The position numbers were made by a program, and so were the translations under genes. Shown piece by piece: positions 7,145 through 45,200 of a stretch of DNA of 64,000 nucleotides (position 1 is the first letter of the stretch; every line of letters begins with the position of its first letter). Source of the DNA: Yaniella halotolerans DSM 15476 (GTDB lineage Bacteria; Actinomycetota; Actinomycetes; Actinomycetales; Micrococcaceae); assembly GCF_000420805.1 (NCBI RefSeq), contig NZ_ATVQ01000002.1, positions 124,001-188,000 on the forward strand, read 5' to 3'. The notes beneath the pieces were generated by a model. That model was not told the DNA's origin, did not search any database, and saw only the letters and a list, made by a program, of their open reading frames with translations.

Positions 7145-8446
7145 ATGGGTGAAAGCAACCTTTCTAACGTCGTTCGACTGCCTTCTTTTGGATCAAAGCA
7201 ACAACCAGTAAAACGGACTGTACGCTGGTCGGCCGTGGGGGCAATTACCGGTGCTCTTGTGGGTACCGCACTTGCTATCATCCCTACATTGGCTTCCATC
7301 TTTGCTCGCACCGTCGTAACACCAGACCCGAAACCTACTGAAGACGTGCAGGTTTATAACTATCTCCCTACCCGTGGCGTATCTGGAGCGGGCTTAATTG
7401 AATTATCCGTTACGCCGCAGACCACTGTGCGCGGCCAGTACGCTTTGGTGTTTAATGAGGGCACCGGTGTCGCGCGTATTGGTGAAATCGTAGCTACAGA
7501 GCGAAAACGCGATACGATAACGCGAATTGTTGAAGAGGTATATAGCGGAGATCTCACCCAGGCAGTTCGTGGCAGATGGGCGGGGTTTGTGTGGCCAACT
7601 CCCAAAGAAGCCGGTTACGTGTATCGGAATGTTGAGATTCCAGTCGATGACGGTTTAGCCCCAGCTTGGCTTATCGAACCAAAGCGCTCAACGCAGCATT
7701 CCAACACTTGGCTGATCACTGTGCATGGACGCGGGTCCAAGCGTAATGAGGGGCTCCGTATGATGGGGGTTGCCCAACGGATGGGGATGCCTGGCTTAAT
7801 GGTCTCGTATCGAAACGATGGTGACGCTCCCGATGCTAGAGACCGAAAATTCGGCCTAGGAGCTACAGAATGGCCAGATATTGAAGCGGCCATCCTGTAT
7901 GCCCTCAACCATGGGGCCACCTCCGTCGTGCTGGGCGGTTTTTCGATGGGTGGGGCAGTCAGCCTGCAAGTCATGTACCGATCGGCATTATCCAGCTACA
8001 TTCGTGGGCTTGTCCTGGTGGGGCCCGTCATTGACTGGTTGGATGTCCTGCGACATCAGGCCCGTATCAATAGACTGCCGCACATTGCTGGAAAGCTAGG
8101 AAGCTGGCTGATCGAGTCGCCCTGGGGGAAGACCATCACTGGCTTGGCCTCACCTGTGGACCTGCAACGCTTAGACTGGGTGACGCGGTCCGACGATATT
8201 ACTCATCCGATCCTGATCTTGCACTCTGAAAACGATGACTTTGTGCCGATCGGTCCTTCAGAGCAACTCGCGGCAAAGAACCGCAAGTTGGTCAGTATGG
8301 TTCGTTTTCAAGAGGCCCGTCACACCCGGGAATGGAATGTGGACCCCGAGAGATTCGATTCCGCCATGCTTACCTGGTTGCATGTTTTGTTGACCGGCCC
8401 CCAGCACTCCCGATTAAGCCTGTCCAGCCCAAAGACTGCTGAATAG
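7145..8446 (+). CDS. Membrane-anchored alpha/beta hydrolase
   Basis: A predicted serine hydrolase of about 433 residues from the ATG at 7145 (the frame is open upstream, with an ATG at 7040). An N-terminal helix (AVGAITGALVGTALAIIP) suggests a membrane anchor with the hydrolase domain outside. The domain has the nucleophile elbow GGFSMGGAVS, an acid residue in SENDDFVP and a histidine in ARHTREW, in the right order. The oxyanion strand LITVHGRGSKR precedes the elbow. It resembles the prolyl-oligopeptidase-like alpha/beta hydrolases of Micrococcaceae; the substrate is unknown. The start at 7145 is chosen because family conservation appears to begin after it; there is no clear ribosome site. 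Confidence 0.85.
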   Translation: MGESNLSNVVRLPSFGSKQQPVKRTVRWSAVGAITGALVGTALAIIPTLASIFARTVVTPDPKPTEDVQVYNYLPTRGVSGAGLIELSVTPQTTVRGQYALVFNEGTGVARIGEIVATERKRDTITRIVEEVYSGDLTQAVRGRWAGFVWPTPKEAGYVYRNVEIPVDDGLAPAWLIEPKRSTQHSNTWLITVHGRGSKRNEGLRMMGVAQRMGMPGLMVSYRNDGDAPDARDRKFGLGATEWPDIEAAILYALNHGATSVVLGGFSMGGAVSLQVMYRSALSSYIRGLVLVGPVIDWLDVLRHQARINRLPHIAGKLGSWLIESPWGKTITGLASPVDLQRLDWVTRSDDITHPILILHSENDDFVPIGPSEQLAAKNRKLVSMVRFQEARHTREWNVDPERFDSAMLTWLHVLLTGPQHSRLSLSSPKTAE

Positions 8447-8458
8447 TCGGCTTGCATC

Positions 8459-8464
8459 TATAAT
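8459..8464 (+). promoter_or_regulatory. Candidate -10 box (TATAAT) for yebC-ruvCAB
   Basis: A perfect TATAAT, 60 bases before the yebC GTG and just after the hydrolase stop. The -35 region is poor (CTGCTG at 17-base spacing). Confidence 0.45.
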
Positions 8465-8523
8465 GGGAGCAGTCAGTTTTCCCACATTGCCCGTGACTAC
8501 ACACGGGAGAGGAGTTCTATACA

Positions 8524-9285
8524 GTGGCAGGTCACTCAAAATGGCATACAACGCGACATAAGAAGGCAGCGTTGGACGCCAAGCGTGCCAAAATGTATGC
8601 CAACCACATTAAGGCGATTGAAGTTGCAGCACGTGCCGGCGGACCGGACCTTGACGGTAACCCAGGGCTAGAAGTCGCGGTTACAAAAGCGAAGAAGCAG
8701 TCGGTGCCCAATGACAATATTGATCGCGCCATTAAACGTGGTGCTGGACTCACCGGTGAAGTTATTGACTACGCCGAAATCATGTACGAAGTCCGCGGGC
8801 CCGAGGGGTCTGCGTTGTTAGTTGAATGTCTAACGGATAATCGCAACCGCGCGGCCTCGGAAGTGCGTGCGACCGTGACACGTAACGGTGGCTTTATGGC
8901 AGATCCAGGTTCCGTCGCTTTCATGTTCCAACGCAGGGGAGTCGTTCGCGTGCCTGCTGAAAATCACACCGAGGACGACATCATGATGGCCGTAATCGAA
9001 GCGGGCGCCGATGAGATCCTTCGTTCCGGCACAGCGTTTGAAATTGTCTCTGACCCTTCGGATATCCAGGCGGTAGCCAAGGCACTAGACGAGGCAGAAA
9101 TTGCCTACGACTCTGATGATGTCGAGTTTTTCGCTGATATGAAAGTCGAACTGGATGCAAAATCAGCCCAGTCCTTCATAGAGCTTTGGGATGCAGTAGA
9201 GGAACTCGACGACGTGCAGAATGTCTACGCCAACGTCGAAATTACCGCCGAAGTTCTTGAAGAACTATCGGCGCAGGACGCTTAA
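8524..9285 (+). CDS. yebC: YebC/PmpR family protein
   Basis: A cytoplasmic protein of 253 residues, standard length, of the YebC (TACO1-like) family. It is classically called a transcriptional regulator; more recent work links the family to translation of difficult peptide stretches. The signature N terminus [15 protein letters not shown] and the motif [15 protein letters not shown] (with preceding [11 protein letters not shown]) are visible. The GTG start is preceded by GGGAGAGGAG. It heads the ruvC-ruvA-ruvB cluster, the usual position of yebC; the ruvC GTG starts at the next base after the yebC stop. Confidence 0.97.
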
Positions 9286-9930
9286 GTGTTAGACGCCGGT
9301 CGCCGTTCCCAGCCGGTGAGCCAACTTCGAGTTTGCGCAGTCGACCCCGGACTAACCCGGTGTGGTATCGCAGTCGTCGATATTGCCGCCAACCGTAGAG
9401 CCCAACTTGTGGATGTTACTGTCGTTGGAAGCCCGGGGACTGACCCCATTGGTGAACGTTTATCGGTCATCGATACGACCATGGATAGTTGGCTGGACAA
9501 GTATCAACCCGATCATTTAGCGATCGAACGTATGTTTGCGCAAAATAACACGCCAACGATTATTGGTACCGCTCAAGCTTCGGGAGTGGCCATTGCCGCA
9601 GGCGCGAGGCGCAACGTACCAACGGCGCTGCTGACGCCTTCGGAGGTTAAGGCTGCTGTTACTGGTTCCGGCTCAGCAGATAAGAAGCAGGTTACTTCGA
9701 TGGTCATGCGAATCTTAGGAATACACACCGCGCCGAAGCCTGCTGATGCTGCCGATGCCATCGCCATCGCCATCGCACATGCATGGCGAGGTGGTCTCTT
9801 CGGTAGGGGTCTAGATACCGGCAAGCTCACCAGCCGTAGCGCTGCTTCAAAATTTTCAAGTGCGCGGCCAGAAACGAATCTGACCCCAGCGCAGAAACTC
9901 TGGCTTGCCGCAGAACGGCGCGCTAGATAA
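9286..9930 (+). CDS. ruvC: Holliday junction endodeoxyribonuclease RuvC
   Basis: Resolves Holliday junctions during recombinational repair, with RuvAB. At 214 residues it is slightly longer than the enterobacterial form because of an N-terminal extension and a tail after residue 175. The catalytic acidic residues are in CAVDPGLTRCG, LAIERMFAQNN and PADAADAIAIAIAH. The start is GTG, directly abutting the yebC stop, so translation is probably coupled. Confidence 0.97.
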   Translation: MLDAGRRSQPVSQLRVCAVDPGLTRCGIAVVDIAANRRAQLVDVTVVGSPGTDPIGERLSVIDTTMDSWLDKYQPDHLAIERMFAQNNTPTIIGTAQASGVAIAAGARRNVPTALLTPSEVKAAVTGSGSADKKQVTSMVMRILGIHTAPKPADAADAIAIAIAHAWRGGLFGRGLDTGKLTSRSAASKFSSARPETNLTPAQKLWLAAERRAR

Positions 9931-10008
9931 TAGAATTTAGTGGGCGTTGGGACGCCAACTTAGATTCACACTGATGTGATGGCTCTATTGCTATCAGAGG
10001 GAGAACGC

Positions 10009-10638
10009 ATGATCTCGTCGCTAACCGGCGAAATTCAACACGTCACAGTCAATAGCGCTGTCATCGCTGTCGGCGGGGTCGGTTATCTTTTTTCGGCAAG
10101 CCCAAACACGCTCTCGATGTTACGCACCGGCCAAGAAGTCACCGTACAAACGCAATTACTGATCCGAGATGATAATCCGGTGTTGTACGGCTTCAGTACA
10201 GCCGATGAGCGTGAAATTTTTGAAGTGATGATGAGCGTTTCAGGCATCGGACCTCGCATCGCATTAGCCGTGCTCTCCGTATTTGATCCCGACGAGGTTC
10301 GCCAGCATATCGACCAACAGGACGATAAGGCCTTTACCAAAGTTCCCGGAATTGGTCCAAAATCGGCCCGACGTATCATCCTTGAACTCTCCGGAAAACT
10401 TGTTCCTCGTGAGGAAGCTGAGACCGGTACGAAATCGGCTCGCAGCGGAGAGCCGGTTTGGAAAGAGCAAGTTCATCAAGCATTGATCGGACTTGGTTGG
10501 AAGGAAAAAGATGCCACGAAAGGTATTGAACAAGCGCTCGAGGCTGATCCGGAACTTGCCGCGTCTGCAGATGTTTCGGCTGCATTGCGCGCTACACTCC
10601 GGAATCTCGGTGAAGGACAGGCAAGGCAGCGACTCTAA
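10009..10638 (+). CDS. ruvA: Holliday junction helicase subunit RuvA
   Basis: Tetrameric junction-binding protein that loads RuvB for branch migration. With the ATG at 10009 it has 209 residues, starting MISSLTGEIQHV as in the family; GAGGGAGAA upstream supports this start over the GTG at 9976. Domain I (OB fold) covers about 1-65, domain II has two helix-hairpin-helix motifs (VSGIGPRIALAVL and VPGIGPKSARRII), and domain III follows an acidic linker and ends near ATLRNLG. It lies between ruvC and ruvB. Confidence 0.96.
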   Translation: MISSLTGEIQHVTVNSAVIAVGGVGYLFSASPNTLSMLRTGQEVTVQTQLLIRDDNPVLYGFSTADEREIFEVMMSVSGIGPRIALAVLSVFDPDEVRQHIDQQDDKAFTKVPGIGPKSARRIILELSGKLVPREEAETGTKSARSGEPVWKEQVHQALIGLGWKEKDATKGIEQALEADPELAASADVSAALRATLRNLGEGQARQRL

Positions 10639-36500: not shown

Positions 36501-37085
36501 GTGGTGCAAGAACCCGTGCGTGAAGCACGTACCGTGATGTCCGAATCCGATATTCAACGGGTCCTGACTCGCATTGCCCATGAAATTTTAGAAGCCAACC
36601 GCGGTGTCGAAGACTTAATCTTGCTTGGGATCCCACGCCGTGGAGTTCCGCTGGCAAACCGTCTGGCCCAAAAACTTGCCGAGATTGAGCCTGAATATGT
36701 TGTTCAGGAACGCACCGGACAACTTGATATCACCCTGTATCGCGATGATCTGGCACGAGCGGAATCGCGTATCCCCGCTACAACGATGATCCCGCCCGCT
36801 GGTGTCGATAACACTGTCGTAGTGTTGGTCGATGACGTGCTATATTCCGGTCGCACGATTCGGGCCGCTCTCGATGCACTGGCCGACATTGGTCGTCCGC
36901 GAACAGTCCGGCTGGCCGTCCTCGTGGATCGAGGACACCGTCAGCTTCCGCTACGCGCAGATTATGTTGGTAAGAATCTACCAACAGCATCCACCGAACG
37001 CGTGATGGTTCAACTTGCAGAAATCGATGGCGCCGACGCTGACTACACCTCGGATCAAGTCCAGATCGTGGATGTGATGGACTAA
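36501..37085 (+). CDS. pyrR: PyrR: pyr mRNA-binding regulator / uracil phosphoribosyltransferase
   Basis: UMP/UTP-responsive RNA-binding protein that represses the pyr operon and has weak uracil phosphoribosyltransferase activity. It has 194 residues. The PRPP-binding loop [19 protein letters not shown] is intact, as are [18 protein letters not shown] and [19 protein letters not shown]. Starts GTG (36501) or GTG (36504) after AAAGGAGATC. It heads the pyr operon and overlaps the pyrB ATG by one base. Confidence 0.95.
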
Positions 37086-38035
37086 TGCGCCATCTTCTTG
37101 CAACACGGAATCTCTCATACGATAACGCCATGGCGATTCTGGACACGGCTCAGGAGATGGCCACTGTATCGGATCGGTCCATCAAAAAGTTACCGACCTT
37201 GCGCGGTCAGACAGTGGTGAATCTCTTCTTCGAAGACTCCACCAGAACCAGGACCTCATTTGAAGCTGCAGCCAAACGGCTATCGGCAGATGTCCTGAAC
37301 TTTGCGGTCAAAACTTCGTCAGTCTCCAAAGGGGAGTCCCTGAAAGACACGGTTCAAACGCTTGAGGCTATCGGTGGGGACGCCATTGTTATGCGGCACT
37401 GGGCCTCTGGGGCTGCGCAACAACTGGCGAACTTTGGTTGGTCCTCATCGGCTGTGATCAACGCGGGAGATGGGACACACGAGCATCCCACACAAGCCCT
37501 CTTAGATGCCTTTACACTGCGTGACCGTATACACGGTCAACATGCATCCGGTAAGGACCTCGAAGGTCTCCACATAGTAGTCGTTGGCGACATCTTGCAC
37601 TCGAGAGTAGCTCGCTCAAATGTATGGCTCTTGCATACTCTCGGGGCCAAAGTGACCCTTTCTGGGCCACCAACACTTATGCCCGTCGGCGTTACGACCT
37701 GGCCGGTGGAGATCAACTATGACCTGGACGCTCTGCTCGCCGAACAACCCGATGCGATCATGATGCTGCGGGTCCAGGCTGAACGCATGTCGGGGGACTT
37801 TTTCCCGTCCGCAGCCGAATACACACGAGGCTGGGGGCTCACCAATGACCGGTATAAGCGCATTGAAGGTTGCAACACACTGATCATGCACCCAGGACCG
37901 ATGAACCGCGGGCTGGAGATTTCCGCTGCTGCAGCCGATTCAGCACAAAACACGGCGCTTGAACAAGTCGCCAACGGCGTATCCGTGCGTATGGCAGTCC
38001 TCTATCTGTTACTTGCGGGTCAACCAGGGCAATGA
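37085..38035 (+). CDS. pyrB: Aspartate carbamoyltransferase catalytic subunit
   Basis: Condenses carbamoyl phosphate with aspartate. It has 316 residues. The carbamoyl-phosphate loop [19 protein letters not shown] and the [10 protein letters not shown] motif are intact, as is [11 protein letters not shown] in the aspartate domain. No pyrI regulatory gene is present, as is normal for Gram-positive operons. Its stop overlaps the first possible start of pyrC (ATGA). Confidence 0.96.
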
Positions 38036-38046
38036 AAGGCCACATC

Positions 38047-39375
38047 ATGAACATCACTTACCTCATCACCGGTGGCACTACTCCGGACGGAGTCCAGACT
38101 GACATCGCCCTTGACGCAGACGGTCTGATTGCGGAACTTGGTCAAGGACTCATGGCACAAGGCGCCGTGGTCATCGACGCGACAGATAAAATTGTGCTCC
38201 CGGGACTTGTAGATCTTCACACTCATCTGCGTGAGCCAGGCAATAATGACGCAGAAACTGTCGAAACCGGCACAAGAGCAGCAGCCAAGGGTGGCTTCAC
38301 CGCCGTGCATGCCATGGCCAACTCGAATCCGGTAGCTGATACCGCAGGTGTCGTCGAACAGGTCTACAGCCTAGGAAAACAGGCCGGCTGGACGGACGTG
38401 CACCCGGTCGGAGCTGTGACCGTGGGTCTGGCGGGAGAACGTTTGGCTGAGCTCTCTGCCATGCATGATTCCGCGGCCAACGTGACGATGTTTTCCGACG
38501 ACGGCATCTGCGTTTGGGACCCGGTGCTCATGCGACGAGCCCTGGAATATGTGAAATCTTTTGATGGCTTTATTGCCCAACACGCACAGGAACCCCGGTT
38601 AACAGAAGGCGCGCAGATGAACGAGTCGGCGTTATCTTCTGAACTCGGTTTGACGGGGTGGCCAGCGGTTGCTGAAGAATCGATTATTGCCCGCGATGTA
38701 CTCCTCGCACAGCACGTGGACTCGCGTGTACATATCTGCCACGTCTCAACGGCCGGATCAGTTGAATTGATTCGTTGGGCAAAATCACAAGGCATCAACG
38801 TAACTGCAGAAGTCACACCGCACCACTTGCTCCTGACTGAAGACTACGTCAAAACATACGATCCGGTGTACAAAGTCAATCCACCGCTGCGAAAAGACTC
38901 TGATGTGCATGCCCTGCGGCAGGGCCTCGCTGACGGCACGATTGACACGGTGGGTACAGACCATGCCCCGCATACAGAAGAAACCAAACAGTGTGAATGG
39001 GTTGTTGCGGCCATGGGTATGACCGGATTGGAAACTGCACTACCTGTTATTCAGCACACCATGGTTGATACCGGTCTGCTGAGCTGGCATGACGTCGCCC
39101 GTGTGATGTCCGCCAACCCCGCGCGAATCTATCGTCACTCGGATCAAGGTCAGCTGACCAAGACCGGGGGACTAGTCCAGGGCGCAGTGGCCAATATAGC
39201 CGTCTACGATCCAACACATACATTTGTGGTCAACCCAGCCGAGCACGACTCAAAGTCAGCAAACTCACCCTATAAAAACATGGAATTGTCGGGTCAAGTT
39301 ACTGACGTGTTCTATCGTGGACACCAGGTCGTAGCTGATGCGCGCATGACCACACCATTTCATCACAGCCGATAA
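38047..39375 (+). CDS. pyrC: Dihydroorotase
   Basis: Cyclises carbamoyl-aspartate to dihydroorotate; a zinc enzyme. From the ATG at 38047 it has 442 residues; AAAGG stands 8 bases before it, so I prefer it to the ATG at 38032 that overlaps pyrB. Metal and substrate motifs VDLHTHLREPG, HICHVSTAGSVELI, EVTPHHLLLTE and GTDHAPHTEETK are intact. It belongs to the class I, Bacillus-type dihydroorotases. Confidence 0.95.
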   Translation: MNITYLITGGTTPDGVQTDIALDADGLIAELGQGLMAQGAVVIDATDKIVLPGLVDLHTHLREPGNNDAETVETGTRAAAKGGFTAVHAMANSNPVADTAGVVEQVYSLGKQAGWTDVHPVGAVTVGLAGERLAELSAMHDSAANVTMFSDDGICVWDPVLMRRALEYVKSFDGFIAQHAQEPRLTEGAQMNESALSSELGLTGWPAVAEESIIARDVLLAQHVDSRVHICHVSTAGSVELIRWAKSQGINVTAEVTPHHLLLTEDYVKTYDPVYKVNPPLRKDSDVHALRQGLADGTIDTVGTDHAPHTEETKQCEWVVAAMGMTGLETALPVIQHTMVDTGLLSWHDVARVMSANPARIYRHSDQGQLTKTGGLVQGAVANIAVYDPTHTFVVNPAEHDSKSANSPYKNMELSGQVTDVFYRGHQVVADARMTTPFHHSR

Positions 39376-39390
39376 GGAAAGACCCCACAC

Positions 39391-39900
39391 GTGGACGAGA
39401 CAACATTCACCGTAACGTTGAGTGCAATCCTCATCGCAGCGATCGTCATCGGTATTATCGTTGGTTTTAGAAACCGCACGAAACGGCAACAGTACATTGC
39501 TGTACCAGCTGCTGTGCCAGAATCCCTGCTGACGCAGCAACCCTTGGGCGCAGCTGAAGGAATATACGTCACCACTGTGCTTGGGCAGGAACTTCTTGAA
39601 CGGGTGATGGCTCACGGCTTGGGAAACCGGAGCCAGGCTCAGGTTGAAGTTCATAATGCCGGAGTGGCCGTGATGCGCGCAGGCGAGCCAAACTTTTTTA
39701 TTCCAACCGGTGACATTACCAAGGTTTCCACCATTTCCGGGATGGCCGGAAAGTTTGTCGAGAAAGATGGCATCTTGGCTATCACCTGGAACCTTGGTGA
39801 TATTGACGTCACCACTGGTTTCCGCACCGAAACCATTGCGGAGCACCAAGAACTTCGCACACAACTTGAGATCCTCACCAACGGAAGGCAGACAGCATGA
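39391..39900 (+). CDS. PH-like domain membrane protein in the pyr operon
   Basis: A 169-residue protein with one N-terminal helix (VTLSAILIAAIVIGIIVGF) followed by a soluble domain with a PH-like beta pattern (GIYVTTVLGQELLERVMAHG to EHQELRTQLE). Genes of this family occupy the same place between pyrC and carA in many Actinobacteria, but their role is unknown; the link to pyrimidine synthesis is by position only. GTG start after GAAAGACC. Its stop overlaps the carA start by four bases. Confidence 0.9.
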   Translation: MDETTFTVTLSAILIAAIVIGIIVGFRNRTKRQQYIAVPAAVPESLLTQQPLGAAEGIYVTTVLGQELLERVMAHGLGNRSQAQVEVHNAGVAVMRAGEPNFFIPTGDITKVSTISGMAGKFVEKDGILAITWNLGDIDVTTGFRTETIAEHQELRTQLEILTNGRQTA

Positions 39901-41021
39901 GCACATCAGCCAAACTTGTCCTGGCGGATGGCACCATCTACGCCGGGACCACCTATGCCGCAACCGGCAGCGTACTTGGCCAACTGGTTTTCGACACCTC
40001 CATGACCGGGTACCAGCACAGCCTGACCAACCCGTCGAATGCTGCCACCATCATGGTGTTCACCTTTCCACACATCGGGAATGTCGGTGTCAATACCAGC
40101 GATGCTGAATCCGAACACTACTGGCCCAGCGGCGTCGTCGTGCGTGATCCGGCCCGCGTGCGCTCAAATTGGCAGGCTGAACAAGGCCTTGACGAGGTCC
40201 TAACCGAAGCGGAAGTTGTGGGTATCGCTGGGGTCGACACCCGTGCTCTTACTCGACACATCGCAATGATGGGACAGGTAACCGCCGGAATTTTTTCTGG
40301 TGAAGCAGCAGCTCAATCTGATGCAGAGCTCATTGCTAAGGTGCGAGATTGGACTCCACCGACAGCAAGCTCGTTGGTGGAAACCGTTTCTACCTCCACA
40401 ACCTATGTGGTCAAGGCCGAGAATCCTCAAGCTACCGTTGCACTCATCGACCTCGGTGTACGGCAAGCAACTATCAACCAGCTGGTAGAACGTGGCAATA
40501 CTGTGCAGGTTATGCCGGCCGCTACAACAGCAGCTGATATTGCTGTAGCCGGTGTTGACGGAGTCGTGCTCTCTTCGGGACCGGGAAACCCCGCGGAATT
40601 ATCGGACCATATCGATCTGGTAAAAGACTTGCTGAATGCAAAGACTCCTATTCTGGGGATTGGCTTGGGACACCAGCTGATCGGCTTGGCATTAGGCTTT
40701 GAAACATACTTGTTGCCACAAGCTCAAAGGGGCCCGAACCAGCCGGTCTACGACGTGGCATCGGGCCAGAGTGCCATCACCTCTCAAAACCATGCGTATG
40801 CACTGCAGGCTGAACTGGGGACTCAAATCGCCCCAATGGCTGACTACGGGGAGGCTACGGTCACCCAATACAGCCTCAATGACAATTCGGTCGAGGCTCT
40901 AGAACTGACTGACCTTCCGGTTGTCACCGTGCAGTACTACCCAGAAAATTCGGCGCTGGAAGTTGATGAACCGCATACGGTGTTTGACCGTTTCGCAACT
41001 CTGATGGCCACCGGCGAGTAA
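39897..41021 (+). CDS. carA: Carbamoyl-phosphate synthase small chain with inactive-looking glutaminase site
   Basis: By family, CarA hydrolyses glutamine and passes ammonia to CarB. It has 374 residues, and the N-terminal domain (GQLVFDTSMTGYQHSLTNPS) and class I amidotransferase fold are intact. The glutaminase triad is not: the nucleophile motif GICLGHQ reads GIGLGHQ, with Gly256 (40662-40664) for Cys; the motif YHPE reads YYPE, with Tyr348 (40938-40940) for His; only Glu350 remains. The usual GHRG reads QRG and the PGPHD segment after YHPE is also changed, while SQNHAYAL and RGPNQPV are kept. The frame is undamaged, so this is a retained protein, not a simple pseudogene. It overlaps the PH-like gene and precedes carB by 19 bases. 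Confidence 0.93.
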   Translation: MSTSAKLVLADGTIYAGTTYAATGSVLGQLVFDTSMTGYQHSLTNPSNAATIMVFTFPHIGNVGVNTSDAESEHYWPSGVVVRDPARVRSNWQAEQGLDEVLTEAEVVGIAGVDTRALTRHIAMMGQVTAGIFSGEAAAQSDAELIAKVRDWTPPTASSLVETVSTSTTYVVKAENPQATVALIDLGVRQATINQLVERGNTVQVMPAATTAADIAVAGVDGVVLSSGPGNPAELSDHIDLVKDLLNAKTPILGIGLGHQLIGLALGFETYLLPQAQRGPNQPVYDVASGQSAITSQNHAYALQAELGTQIAPMADYGEATVTQYSLNDNSVEALELTDLPVVTVQYYPENSALEVDEPHTVFDRFATLMATGE

Positions 41022-41040: not shown

Positions 41041-44000
41041 ATGCCAAAACGCACAGATCTCTCATCCGTACTAGTCATCGGTTCAGGTCCGATTGTTATC
41101 GGCCAAGCGGCTGAATTCGACTACTCAGGAACCCAGGCCATCCGGGTGCTCAAAGAAGAAGGCATTCGAGTGGTGCTGGTTAACTCCAACCCGGCCACGA
41201 TTATGACTGATCCAGAGATGGCCGATGCGACCTATGTTGAACCGATTACTGCCGACGTCGTCGAAAAGATCATTGCCGAAGAACGACCAGATGCCCTTTT
41301 GCCCACTCTGGGCGGCCAAACTGCTTTGAACACTGCGATCCAGTTGGATGAGCGCGGTGTCTTAGAACAATATGGTGTCGAACTTATCGGTGCCAATATT
41401 GCCGCAATTGAACTGGGCGAAGACCGCGAAGAATTCAAAGGTGTCGTCGAGCGTTGTGGCGCTGAATCGGCGCGTTCAGTCATCGTCAATACGATGGACG
41501 AAGCACTTGAAGCTGCACACGAACTCGGCTATCCGATGGTCGTGCGCCCTTCGTTTACGATGGGCGGTCTGGGCTCGGGTATGGCGTACGACGAAGCAGA
41601 CCTCCACCGTATTGCCGGTGCCGGTCTACAGTACTCGCCAACTTCAGAGGTCTTGTTAGAAGAGTCGATTCTGGGTTGGAAAGAATATGAATTCGAAATG
41701 ATGCGCGATAGCGCCGATAACGTTATCGCGCTGTGCTCGATCGAAAACTTTGACCCTGTCGGAGTTCACACCGGCGACGCCATCACCGTAGCCCCTGCTG
41801 TGACACTGACCGACCGCGAATACCAGAAGATGCGCGATATCTCGATCAAGATCATTCGTGAGGTCGGTGTGGCCACAGGTGGCTGTAATATACAGTTCGC
41901 AGTGAACCCCGCAGATGGCCGCATCATTGTTATTGAAATGAACCCGCGTGTATCACGTTCCTCTGCGCTGGCGTCGAAAGCCACCGGATACCCGATAGCA
42001 AAAATCGCTACCAAACTCTCACTGGGTTACACACTGGATGAGATTTCCAACGACGTTACGGGTACGACCACCGCGGCATTTGAACCTGCGCTCGATTACG
42101 TGGCGGTAAAAGTCCCACGTTTTGCTTTCGAGAAATTCCCAGCAGCAGATGCCACGCTGACCACCACAATGAAGGCTGTCGGCGAAGTGATGTCCATAGG
42201 ACGGAATTTTGCTGAAGCACTCCAGAAAGCGCTACGTTCGCTCGAACAGGATAACGATGCTGAACTAGACTTCACCGTGCCAGACGCAGCGGAAGTCGCC
42301 GAACTACTGGAATCCTCCAAAACCGCGACGACATCGAGACTCGGTCAAGTGCAGCGAGCCCTGCTGGGCGGTGCCACTCCAGAGCAGATTTTTGCTACGA
42401 CCCAGATTGACCCGTGGTTCATTGACCAGCTGATGTTGATCAACGAGGTCGCCACCGAGATTCGTGCCGCCAAAGAACTCACCCAGGACCTGCTTCGTTA
42501 CGCCAAGCGTCATGGGTTCTCCGACCGTCAGATCGGCGAACTGCGTCACATGGATGAAGCCGTGGTGCGTGGTGTGCGCCATGCTCTTGGTGTTCGCCCC
42601 GTCTATAAATCGGTGGACACCGCAGCCGGCGAACATATTGCTCAAGCTCCTTACCACTACTCGTCTTATGACGGCCAGGAAAGTGAAGTTGCAGAACACC
42701 AACGCCGCACGGTCGTGATCCTGGGCTCCGGGCCAAACCGTATCGGTCAGGGTGTGGAGTTCGATTATTCATGCGTTCACGCAACCATGGCGATGCAACA
42801 GGCCGGCTACGACACCGTGCTGGTCAACTGCAACCCTGAAACTGTGTCGACAGACTCCGATATGTCAGACCGTCTATACTTCGAGCCACTGACCTTGGAA
42901 GACGTCCTAGAGATCATCCACGCTGAGGAACAAACCGGACCCGTCGAAGGTGTCTTTGTACAGTTGGGCGGCCAAACGCCATTGAAACTGGCCCAAGATC
43001 TTGCTGACGCCGGCGTGACCATTCTCGGGACGTCACCAGAGGCCATTGATTTGGCTGAGCACCGTGGACTATTTGCTCAGGTGCTGCAGCAAGCAGACCT
43101 CGCTGCGCCAAAGAATGGGACCGCCGTGTCCTTTGAAGACGCGAAAACCATTGCTGACGAAATCGGCTACCCCGTTCTGGTACGCCCTTCGTATGTACTG
43201 GGCGGTCGCGGTATGGAGATCGTCTACGGCGAAGAGCAGCTGTCGGACTACATCACAAACGCCACCGCCGAAATCACAGCAGAACATCCCGTGCTCGTCG
43301 ACCGTTTCCTCGATGACGCGATCGAAATCGACGTTGATGCGCTGTATGACGGCCACGAACTGTTTATGGGTGGCATCATGGAACACATCGAAGAAGCCGG
43401 GATTCATTCCGGTGACTCCGCATGTGTGTTGCCCCCAACAACGTTGGCGCCAGACGTGCTAGCCCGGGTTCGTGAAGCAACAGAAGCCATCGCTAAAGGT
43501 GTCGGAGTGCGGGGGCTGATCAATATCCAGTTCGCGCTGACGGCAGATATTCTGTACGTGATCGAAGCGAACCCACGTGCGTCCCGAACCGTGCCATTTG
43601 TCTCCAAGGCCACCGGCGTTGCCCTCGCCAAGGCGGCTGCAAAAATTGGTGTTGGGTCTACGATCGCCGAACTTCGCGAGACCGGTGGCCTCCCTGCGAC
43701 CCACGATGGTTGGTCGCTACCACTTGGTGCTCCCATCGCTGTCAAAGAAGCTGTACTCCCGTTCACCCGCTTCCGTACTCCAGAAGGTCGTGTGGTTGAT
43801 TCTCTACTGGGACCGGAAATGCGTTCAACCGGTGAGGTCATGGGTATCGACAAATACTTCGACACCGCTTATGCCAAATCGCAGGACGCTGTTGGCGGAA
43901 AACTCCCAACGACCGGCCGGGTTTTCATCTCAGTGGCAAACCGCGATAAGCGCGGCATCGTTGCGCATGCTAAACGGTTGACTGAGTTGGGTTTTGAACT

Positions 44001-44349
44001 GGTTTCAACCGGTGGTACCGCCGACGTGCTAGCACGCAACGGGATCAGCACTGAAACCGTGGATAAAATTACTAGTGATGCAGATCAGCCTGGAGAAACC
44101 ATTCTTGATCAGCTCGAGGACGGCAGAGTCGATCTGGTCGTCAACACGCCATCGGGCTCGGAAGCACGTGGAGACGGCTACGAGATCCGCGCCGCTGCAA
44201 ATTCACTAGGTGTGCCGATTGTGACCACCCAGGCTGCTTTCGGCACCGCCTTGCAAGCTATACAAGCCCAGCGCGACTACTCCTGGGATGTCACCAGCCT
44301 GCAGGAACATGATCGTCGTCTTGCCGCAGTGATTGAAAACCAACGGTAG
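41041..44349 (+). CDS. carB: Carbamoyl-phosphate synthase large chain
   Basis: Makes carbamoyl phosphate from ammonia, bicarbonate and two ATP for pyrimidines and arginine. It has 1102 residues, full length. Two ATP-grasp halves are present: the first with [34 protein letters not shown] and [19 protein letters not shown]; the second with [35 protein letters not shown] and [19 protein letters not shown]. The C-terminal MGS-like regulatory domain starts [12 protein letters not shown]. It looks fully functional, in contrast to the CarA beside it. AAGGAA precedes the ATG. Confidence 0.97.
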
Positions 44350-44357
44350 GATCCGCC

Positions 44358-45200
44358 ATGTCACAGTCGTTTGGAGCACGTTTAGCTGAGGCGATGGACC
44401 GCCAGGGACCCCTGTGTTTGGGCATTGATCCCCATGCGGAGTTGTTGCAGACGTGGGGTCTTAATGATGATCCTGCCGGTCTTGAGACGTTTTCGAAAAC
44501 TATTGTCCAAGCAGCAGCCGAGACTACCGGTGTTGCTGCGCTGAAACCCCAAGTAGCTTTGTATGAGCGATTTGGTTCAGCGGGTTTTGCCGTGCTGGAA
44601 GAGACGTTAGAGCTTGCACGACAAGCCAATATTGTCACTATCGCTGATGCAAAACGTGGTGATATTGGTTCGACTATGGCCGGCTATGCACAAGCTTGGC
44701 TTGCTGATGGCTCTGCCCTGGCTGCAGATGCCGTAACGTTGTCGGCCTACCTGGGGTATGAATCACTGCGGCCTGCACTCGACCTAGCACTTGCGAATAA
44801 CCGCGGAGTTTTCGTGCTTGCTCTGACTTCGAATCCCGAAGGTGCAAGTGTTCAACATGCGGCAGAGAATGGCGAGTCCGTGGCAAAACGTATTGTTGAG
44901 GCGGTGGCACATGACAACGCCGATAGTGAAGAACTCGGATCGATTGGATTGGTTGTCGGTGCCACGGTGACCAGCGCTGCTGAACGATTGAATATCGACT
45001 TGGCGAGGGCAAATGCCCCTATCCTGGCACCTGGGTATGGCTCTCAAGGAGCACAGGCTGCGGAAATTCGGGCAGGATTCGGTCAGGCATGGGACAACGT
45101 CCTAGTCAACTCGTCTCGTGCGATTCTGCGACAGGGTCCAGAAATCTCTGCATTACACGCTGCAATTGAGCACTCCCGTAAAGACCTAAGTGTGAAGTAG
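44358..45200 (+). CDS. pyrF: Orotidine 5'-phosphate decarboxylase
   Basis: Converts OMP to UMP. It has 280 residues and is of the longer, type 2 kind found in Actinobacteria. The catalytic Lys-Asp motif is in IADAKRGDIGSTM, with LCLGIDPHAELL and APGYGSQGAQAAEI (phosphate loop) intact. It starts 8 bases after the carB stop and ends the pyr operon before a hairpin terminator. pyrD, pyrE and pyrG/pyrH are not in the window. Confidence 0.95.
   Translation: MSQSFGARLAEAMDRQGPLCLGIDPHAELLQTWGLNDDPAGLETFSKTIVQAAAETTGVAALKPQVALYERFGSAGFAVLEETLELARQANIVTIADAKRGDIGSTMAGYAQAWLADGSALAADAVTLSAYLGYESLRPALDLALANNRGVFVLALTSNPEGASVQHAAENGESVAKRIVEAVAHDNADSEELGSIGLVVGATVTSAAERLNIDLARANAPILAPGYGSQGAQAAEIRAGFGQAWDNVLVNSSRAILRQGPEISALHAAIEHSRKDLSVK

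Follow-up and report, generated by a model that had tools for sequence, protein, structure and literature searches.

The 64,000-nucleotide stretch analyzed here, referred to as the window (G000:C2:124001-188000), belongs to a Yaniella genome of 2.78 Mb that is assembled in 6 contigs and 100% complete, and contains a pyr operon with the gene order pyrR-pyrB-pyrC-PH protein-carA-carB-pyrF, all on the + strand. The first gene (36501..37085) is pyrR-like and was named by appearance and position. It is followed by pyrB (37085..38035), encoding aspartate carbamoyltransferase, a user of carbamoyl phosphate; by pyrC (38032..39375), encoding dihydroorotase; and, in the interval between pyrC and carA, by a gene whose small product carries a bacterial PH-like domain (PF25362; 39391..39900). 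carA (39897..41021) and carB (41041..44349), which encode the small and large subunits of carbamoyl-phosphate synthase (CPSase), precede pyrF (44358..45200), encoding orotidine-5'-phosphate decarboxylase.

The carA reading frame (39897-41021) translates into 374 amino acids without interruption or stop codon, and its product scores 346.6 bits against the CarA family model TIGR01368 (cut-off 307.35). The protein comprises a CPSase_sm_chain domain, which binds CarB (residues 7-131; 39915..40289, +; 80.8% identity within Yaniella), and a class I glutamine amidotransferase (GATase) domain (residues 183-366; 40443..40994, +; 72% identity within Yaniella), which matches PF00117 with 105.8 bits and is predicted to be catalytically dead. 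The original prediction held that the catalytic Cys and His had been lost while the frame remained open, and both codons and alignment bear this out. Instead of the Cys-His-Glu of a functional class I GATase, CarA has Gly256 (codon ggc, 40662..40664, +) at the site of the E. coli nucleophile Cys269 and Tyr348 (codon tac, 40938..40940, +) at the site of the E. coli catalytic His353, with the third triad member kept as Glu350 (E. coli Glu355; 40944..40946, +). Each replacement could have arisen by a single base change (TGC to GGC and CAC to TAC). Neighboring motifs are altered relative to those of relatives, as had also been claimed; AQRG (residues 276-279; 40722..40733, +) replaces GHRG, and PENSALEVDE (residues 349-358; 40941..40970, +) replaces PEAAAGPHD. 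In addition, Ala300-Tyr301 (40794..40799, +) replaces the Gly-Phe found in relatives and in the glutamine pocket of E. coli CarA (G313-F314). By sequence and by its position beside carB in the pyr operon this protein is CarA, yet, judged by its residues, it is predicted not to be a functional glutamine amidotransferase. Retention of Glu350 and of the E. coli-like L270, Q273, and N311 (E. coli numbering) indicates that the pocket has not been erased, as would be expected if the altered site cleaved glutamine by a different mechanism or bound another nitrogen donor; we regard this as extremely improbable, since class I GATases need a Cys thioester, Gly and Tyr remove nucleophile and base, G313-F314 of the glutamine pocket is also changed, and the same Cys-to-Gly replacement in three other enzymes (see below) points to loss. 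An AlphaFold model of CarA, built from a 4-sequence alignment, reached a mean pLDDT of 35 and was not used. The idea that the tunnel is blocked at the position of E. coli CarA G293, as it is in human CPS1, was rejected; Pro280 of Yaniella CarA is uninformative in this respect because relatives with an intact triad share it.

Gly256 and Tyr348 are present in all eight Yaniella CarA proteins with a readable position (including that of the single-contig genome G005), while the aligned proteins of other Micrococcaceae have Cys and His at these sites in 22 of 22 cases. The named Yaniella species in the public collection have CarA proteins with 71-88% identity to the one studied here, and no stops or frameshifts were found in CarA across Yaniella species. 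Throughout the genus, 46 CarA columns that are conserved at ≥90% among relatives are altered, several of them near the glutamine site; genus-wide motif changes include GHRG to AQRG, NHGF to NH[A/E/H/Q]Y, and loss of PEAAAGPHD. Both residue changes are real and far beyond chance. A sequencing or assembly error, against which the original prediction had argued, and an intact carA elsewhere, which it had left as an alternative, together have practically no chance of being correct; we found no point in their support, and both are refuted by the sharing of the changes among eight species, one represented by a single contig, and by the recovery of a single carA from the 2.78-Mb genome, each intact relative genome likewise giving one full-length CarA match. 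With regard to other lineages, the pattern GI-x-[LF]GHQ with a non-Cys residue at x, which misses FGNQ-type CarA as well as T-initial codons for Ser, Phe, Tyr, and Trp and was counted as one match per genome, matched in 60 of 396 Micrococcales genomes; the 20 non-Yaniella matches that were translated all lay outside a CarA context and revealed no loss of the CarA Cys outside Yaniella.

CarB (1102 aa) is full length and intact, in agreement with the original prediction, and all catalytic and ammonia- or carbamate-tunnel residues that were checked are retained (R129, R169, E215, C232, A251, Q285, E299, N301, R303, R306, S307, A309, A314, R675, R715, E761, E841, and others; E. coli numbering). 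The operon thus encodes what is expected of an ammonia-dependent CPSase, i.e., a GATase domain kept without its catalytic Cys together with a large subunit in which active sites and tunnel gate are intact. E. coli CarB can use NH3 to produce carbamoyl phosphate, and Cys269 and His353 are essential solely for the hydrolysis of glutamine; without glutamine, however, free ammonia is effective only at very high concentration (PMC6245113), and Yaniella CarB would therefore need to make better use of NH3. There are 12 genus-specific columns in Yaniella CarB, including a cluster at E. coli positions 528-540, and no obvious adaptive residue for better NH3 use was seen among the Yaniella CarB sequences.

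The other class I GATases of Yaniella were reached through a PF00117 search over the genus, and three of them show comparable changes. In GuaA, the catalytic Cys is replaced by Gly (Ser in one species) and the His by Asn in 6 of 6 Yaniella, such that VLGLCYGFQ and VQWHPE of relatives correspond to VLA[I/V/A][G/S]GGF and LWNPG-like motifs; the synthase part is intact, and identity within the genus is 66% for the GATase part versus 90% for the synthase part. In the PabA part of a PabA-PabB fusion, VCLGHQ has become IGAGYQ-like (Cys to Gly) and FHPES is lost in 7 of 7 Yaniella (62% identity within the genus versus 72% for its partner). In PurQ, encoded adjacent to purL, GICNGFQ has become GLGNGFQ and PHPEH has become [S/N]PEY (His to Ser or Asn) in 4 of 4 Yaniella; these proteins fall under the PurQ equivalog cut-off but have a GATase_5 domain, and are 79% identical within the genus versus 91% for PurL. 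The nucleophile elbow of the class I GATase fold is a strained turn in which Gly is a plausible replacement, which would explain why Cys-to-Gly recurs in four proteins. HisH, by contrast, keeps Cys and FHPE in 8 of 8 Yaniella; because it is only 75% identical within the genus and yet has its catalytic residues, low identity alone is no proof of a dead glutaminase, and it is the residues that decide. PurF likewise retains its catalytic Cys. The studied genome also encodes, at L107:3633-16796 (G000:C1:1303000-1322000), three class I GATases of PuuD-like type in which Cys and His are intact; they lie near glutamine-synthetase-like and aldehyde dehydrogenase genes, in a cluster that resembles one for gamma-glutamyl amine catabolism. 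HisH, one of these three enzymes, or a separate glutaminase could be taken as a source of ammonia for CarAB and the other synthases, and the original prediction had named another amidotransferase as a possible donor. We consider such a supply very unlikely; several other amidotransferases of Yaniella are themselves inactivated or missing, HisH serves HisF exclusively, the substrates of PuuD-like enzymes are gamma-glutamyl conjugates, consistent with the genes that adjoin them, and free ammonia accounts more simply for losses that occurred independently in four different complexes.

Among amidotransferases of other classes, the single AsnB-type gene read in G005 encodes a protein that starts with MSAIVAAHG and is without an N-terminal Cys, as are two of four larger asparagine-synthetase-like proteins; in this set (L202:5093-6661 in G005, and L215-L218), MSAIVAAHG, MLTAIAGE, and MLSAIAGE are the Cys-less starts, and MLCGIAGE and MVCAIAGE the Cys-bearing ones. 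Divergent GatA proteins of G000, G001, and G008 were considered as a further dead amidotransferase, but proved to be unrelated amidases whose Lys-Ser-Ser motif is intact; a true GatA was not found in these three genomes. G005 has a gatCAB operon beside a gene for a siderophore-interacting protein (G005:C1:2255000-2274900, L237), which is missing from the corresponding region of the studied genome (G000:C1:1393000-1412900, L239), and no GlnRS match was seen in G000. In many actinobacteria, pdxS-pdxT lies near yebC-ruvC-ruvA-ruvB; at window positions 8446-10638, an alpha/beta hydrolase gene lies upstream of yebC-ruvC-ruvA-ruvB, and pdxS-pdxT is not at that spot.

Several further glutaminase genes were not found in Yaniella at the sensitivity used, i.e., with family profiles or with single queries from two joined query proteins run over seven Yaniella genomes and over G009 and G024, two relatives. 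TrpG was detected in Yaniella neither by PF00117 (nine genomes) nor by an E. coli TrpG query (seven genomes), and is present, with its Cys, in G009 and G024. Yaniella TrpE (L143, L136, L139) carries PIGGSKPKDP and LAKAE in place of PIAGSRPRG and LARND, while TrpE of a sister genus (L156) keeps the usual motifs; these changes may perhaps represent an adaptation to work without TrpG. The isomerase part of GlmS, queried with the G009 domain, was found in none of seven Yaniella (99% identity in G009 and 84% in G024), and in a family survey GlmS was present in 68 of 68 other Micrococcaceae genomes and in none of the three Yaniella drawn. A NagB-type protein, on the other hand, occurs in 7 of 7 Yaniella but in neither G009 nor G024; it is 82-98% identical within the genus and is encoded alone, outside any nag operon (L201:2956-3714; L202:2862-3716; L203:2914-3666), and the family survey found more distant NagB proteins (43-50%) in further genera, which have GlmS as well. 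The Yaniella protein is a candidate ammonia-dependent GlcN6P synthase that may replace GlmS. CTP synthase (PyrG, PF06418) was not found in seven Yaniella (G000, G001, G003-G006, and G008) or in G024, and was found in G009, G010, G022, and 14 of 14 control genomes; the family survey did not list PyrG for 10 of 71 genomes, three of them from genus g12. Nothing that could stand in for CTP synthase was identified in Yaniella.

Ammonium assimilation shows a related pattern. GltB (GOGAT) was found in 0 of 7 Yaniella, with G009 the only positive among the nine genomes queried, while GdhA and GlnA, the latter in two copies, are present in 7 of 7. A canonical Amt (E < 1e-100 in relatives) was found in 0 of 9 Yaniella, and a divergent PF00909 protein in 7 of 9, the studied genome having none; because other relatives with intact CarA also are without Amt, this absence is no more than consistent with use of ammonia. 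Synthesis of carbamoyl phosphate via carbamate kinase was rejected, since no match above cut-off was obtained in Yaniella and the weak matches, far under the cut-off, had lengths that fit other amino-acid kinases. A locus in G005 (L111:4641-11838) contains glutamine-synthetase-like genes, a divergent Amt-type transporter gene, and GlxB/C/D-like genes, and resembles the N-methylglutamate (methylamine) pathway.

Evolutionary rates differ markedly between the two CPSase subunits. CarA and CarB are 73% and 93% identical, respectively, within Yaniella, 46% and 75% between Yaniella and relatives, and 67% and 78% among relatives; in trees, the Yaniella stem branch measures 0.97 versus 0.16 substitutions per site, and the summed branches inside Yaniella 1.35 versus 0.32. 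Pairwise omega (NG86), for which dS is near saturation in wider pairs, is about 0.09-0.13 for CarA and about 0.01-0.03 for CarB. Because omega is approximately 0.1 for CarA as compared to approximately 0.02 for CarB, CarA is relaxed but still constrained; the relaxation amounts to roughly five- to eight-fold in close pairs, and purifying selection persists. Such residual constraint is as expected of a scaffold that CarB needs. Rapid evolution of CarA, the GuaA GATase part, and PabA, along with rich habitats and the missing PyrG, could also be read as decay of whole pathways in organisms that obtain pyrimidines, purines, arginine, tryptophan, and amino sugars from their surroundings, with the amidotransferase parts eroding first. 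This we consider unlikely, given that the synthase partners show strong conservation (CarB 93%, PurL 91%, and GuaA synthase part 90%, with a CarB omega of approximately 0.02), that CarA has an omega of approximately 0.1 and is free of stops and frameshifts across species, and that PurF, PurL, TrpE, and PabB are all retained.

Overall, Yaniella CarA is very probably a retained subunit with a dead glutaminase in an ammonia-dependent CPSase and one case of a coordinated, genus-wide shift to NH3 on the Yaniella stem. The evidence thus favors the proposal in the original prediction of a relaxed glutaminase and use of free ammonia; the main point, beyond what could be seen in the window, is the genus-wide scope and the whole set of amidotransferase losses, in that at least five other glutamine-cutting enzymes are broken or missing, which suggests that much of Yaniella biosynthesis runs on free ammonia. 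In the CPSase, free NH3 would diffuse into CarAB and reach the carboxyphosphate site of the intact CarB, such that ammonia instead of glutamine would supply the nitrogen of carbamoyl phosphate for pyrimidines and arginine. GuaA, PurQ, and PabA would have kept their synthase partners and lost their glutaminase residues on the same stem; anthranilate would be made by TrpE alone after loss of TrpG, GlcN6P perhaps by the NagB-type enzyme after loss of GlmS, and, with GOGAT lost, ammonium would be assimilated by glutamate dehydrogenase and glutamine synthetase. It seems likely, although with less confidence than for CarA itself, that most glutamine amidotransferases of this free-living genus have been dismantled (CarA, GuaA, PurQ, and PabA by inactivation, TrpG, GlmS, and CTP synthase by loss, and gatCAB too in some species) and that nucleotide, arginine, folate, tryptophan, and amino-sugar synthesis depends on free cytoplasmic ammonia, with assimilation through glutamate dehydrogenase and neither GOGAT nor a canonical Amt. 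Glutamine would not have been wholly abandoned, because the catalytic Cys persists in HisH (8/8) and in PurF and because Yaniella has two glutamine synthetases. The setting for this shift may have been a cytoplasm plentiful in ammonium, in an ancestor that lived in ammonia-rich habitats; titles and records report Yaniella from poultry litter, faeces, and cheese rinds, and these habitats, along with the lack of GOGAT and a canonical Amt and the retention of glutamate dehydrogenase, indirectly support high internal ammonium. We found no published description of such a multi-enzyme loss in the openly licensed literature.

The usual rationale for glutamine amidotransferases that have an ammonia tunnel is that ammonia which is scarce or would be wasted has to be protected and delivered. 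Yaniella offers a natural experiment on the dispensability of this machinery, as the same pair of catalytic residues has disappeared from four enzymes and, in two to three further cases, the entire glutaminase gene is gone. It becomes testable at which ammonia level the need for glutamine is abolished, how these cells make CTP, and how a dead glutaminase subunit supports its partner, given that CarA, PurQ, and the GuaA domain remain under constraint. These enzymes are also predicted to be naturally tolerant of inhibitors that are glutamine analogues (DON, acivicin, and azaserine). Annotation pipelines call these proteins glutamine-hydrolyzing despite the missing residues.

Compared to known systems, the Yaniella CPSase shares with the glutamine-dependent E. 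coli CarAB its gene pair, the order of its domains, the active sites of CarB, and the tunnel gate (C232, A251, and A314), and differs from it in the replacement of Cys269 and His353 and the change of G313-F314, with 37% identity between the CarA proteins. An E. coli-type NadE without a glutaminase is present in both Yaniella and its relatives; members of this family use either ammonia or glutamine (PMC3376133), and ammonia use by NadE represents a long-standing family trait that lies outside the Yaniella change. Akkermansia muciniphila, like Yaniella, has a NagB-type enzyme and no GlmS, although its NagB made no GlcN6P at physiological conditions (PMC5902328); A. muciniphila needs N-acetylglucosamine and is an isolated amino-sugar case, whereas in Yaniella many glutaminases were lost together. 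Human CPS1, which has Ser294 at the position of the catalytic Cys, takes external ammonia (PMC4655335), and CPS III of Alcolapia fish from an extreme habitat was shifted to ammonia by changes in the pocket (PMC7657897); as in Yaniella, the GATase part of these enzymes is kept but is dead or weak on glutamine. Animal CPS1, however, is a single fused, N-acetylglutamate-activated enzyme of the urea cycle and the only enzyme changed, whereas Yaniella has a two-subunit biosynthetic enzyme, encoded by separate carA and carB genes, that has lost both Cys and His and is accompanied by changes in many other amidotransferases. As judged from these features, the Yaniella CPSase would function in the manner of CPS I without being CPS I proper.
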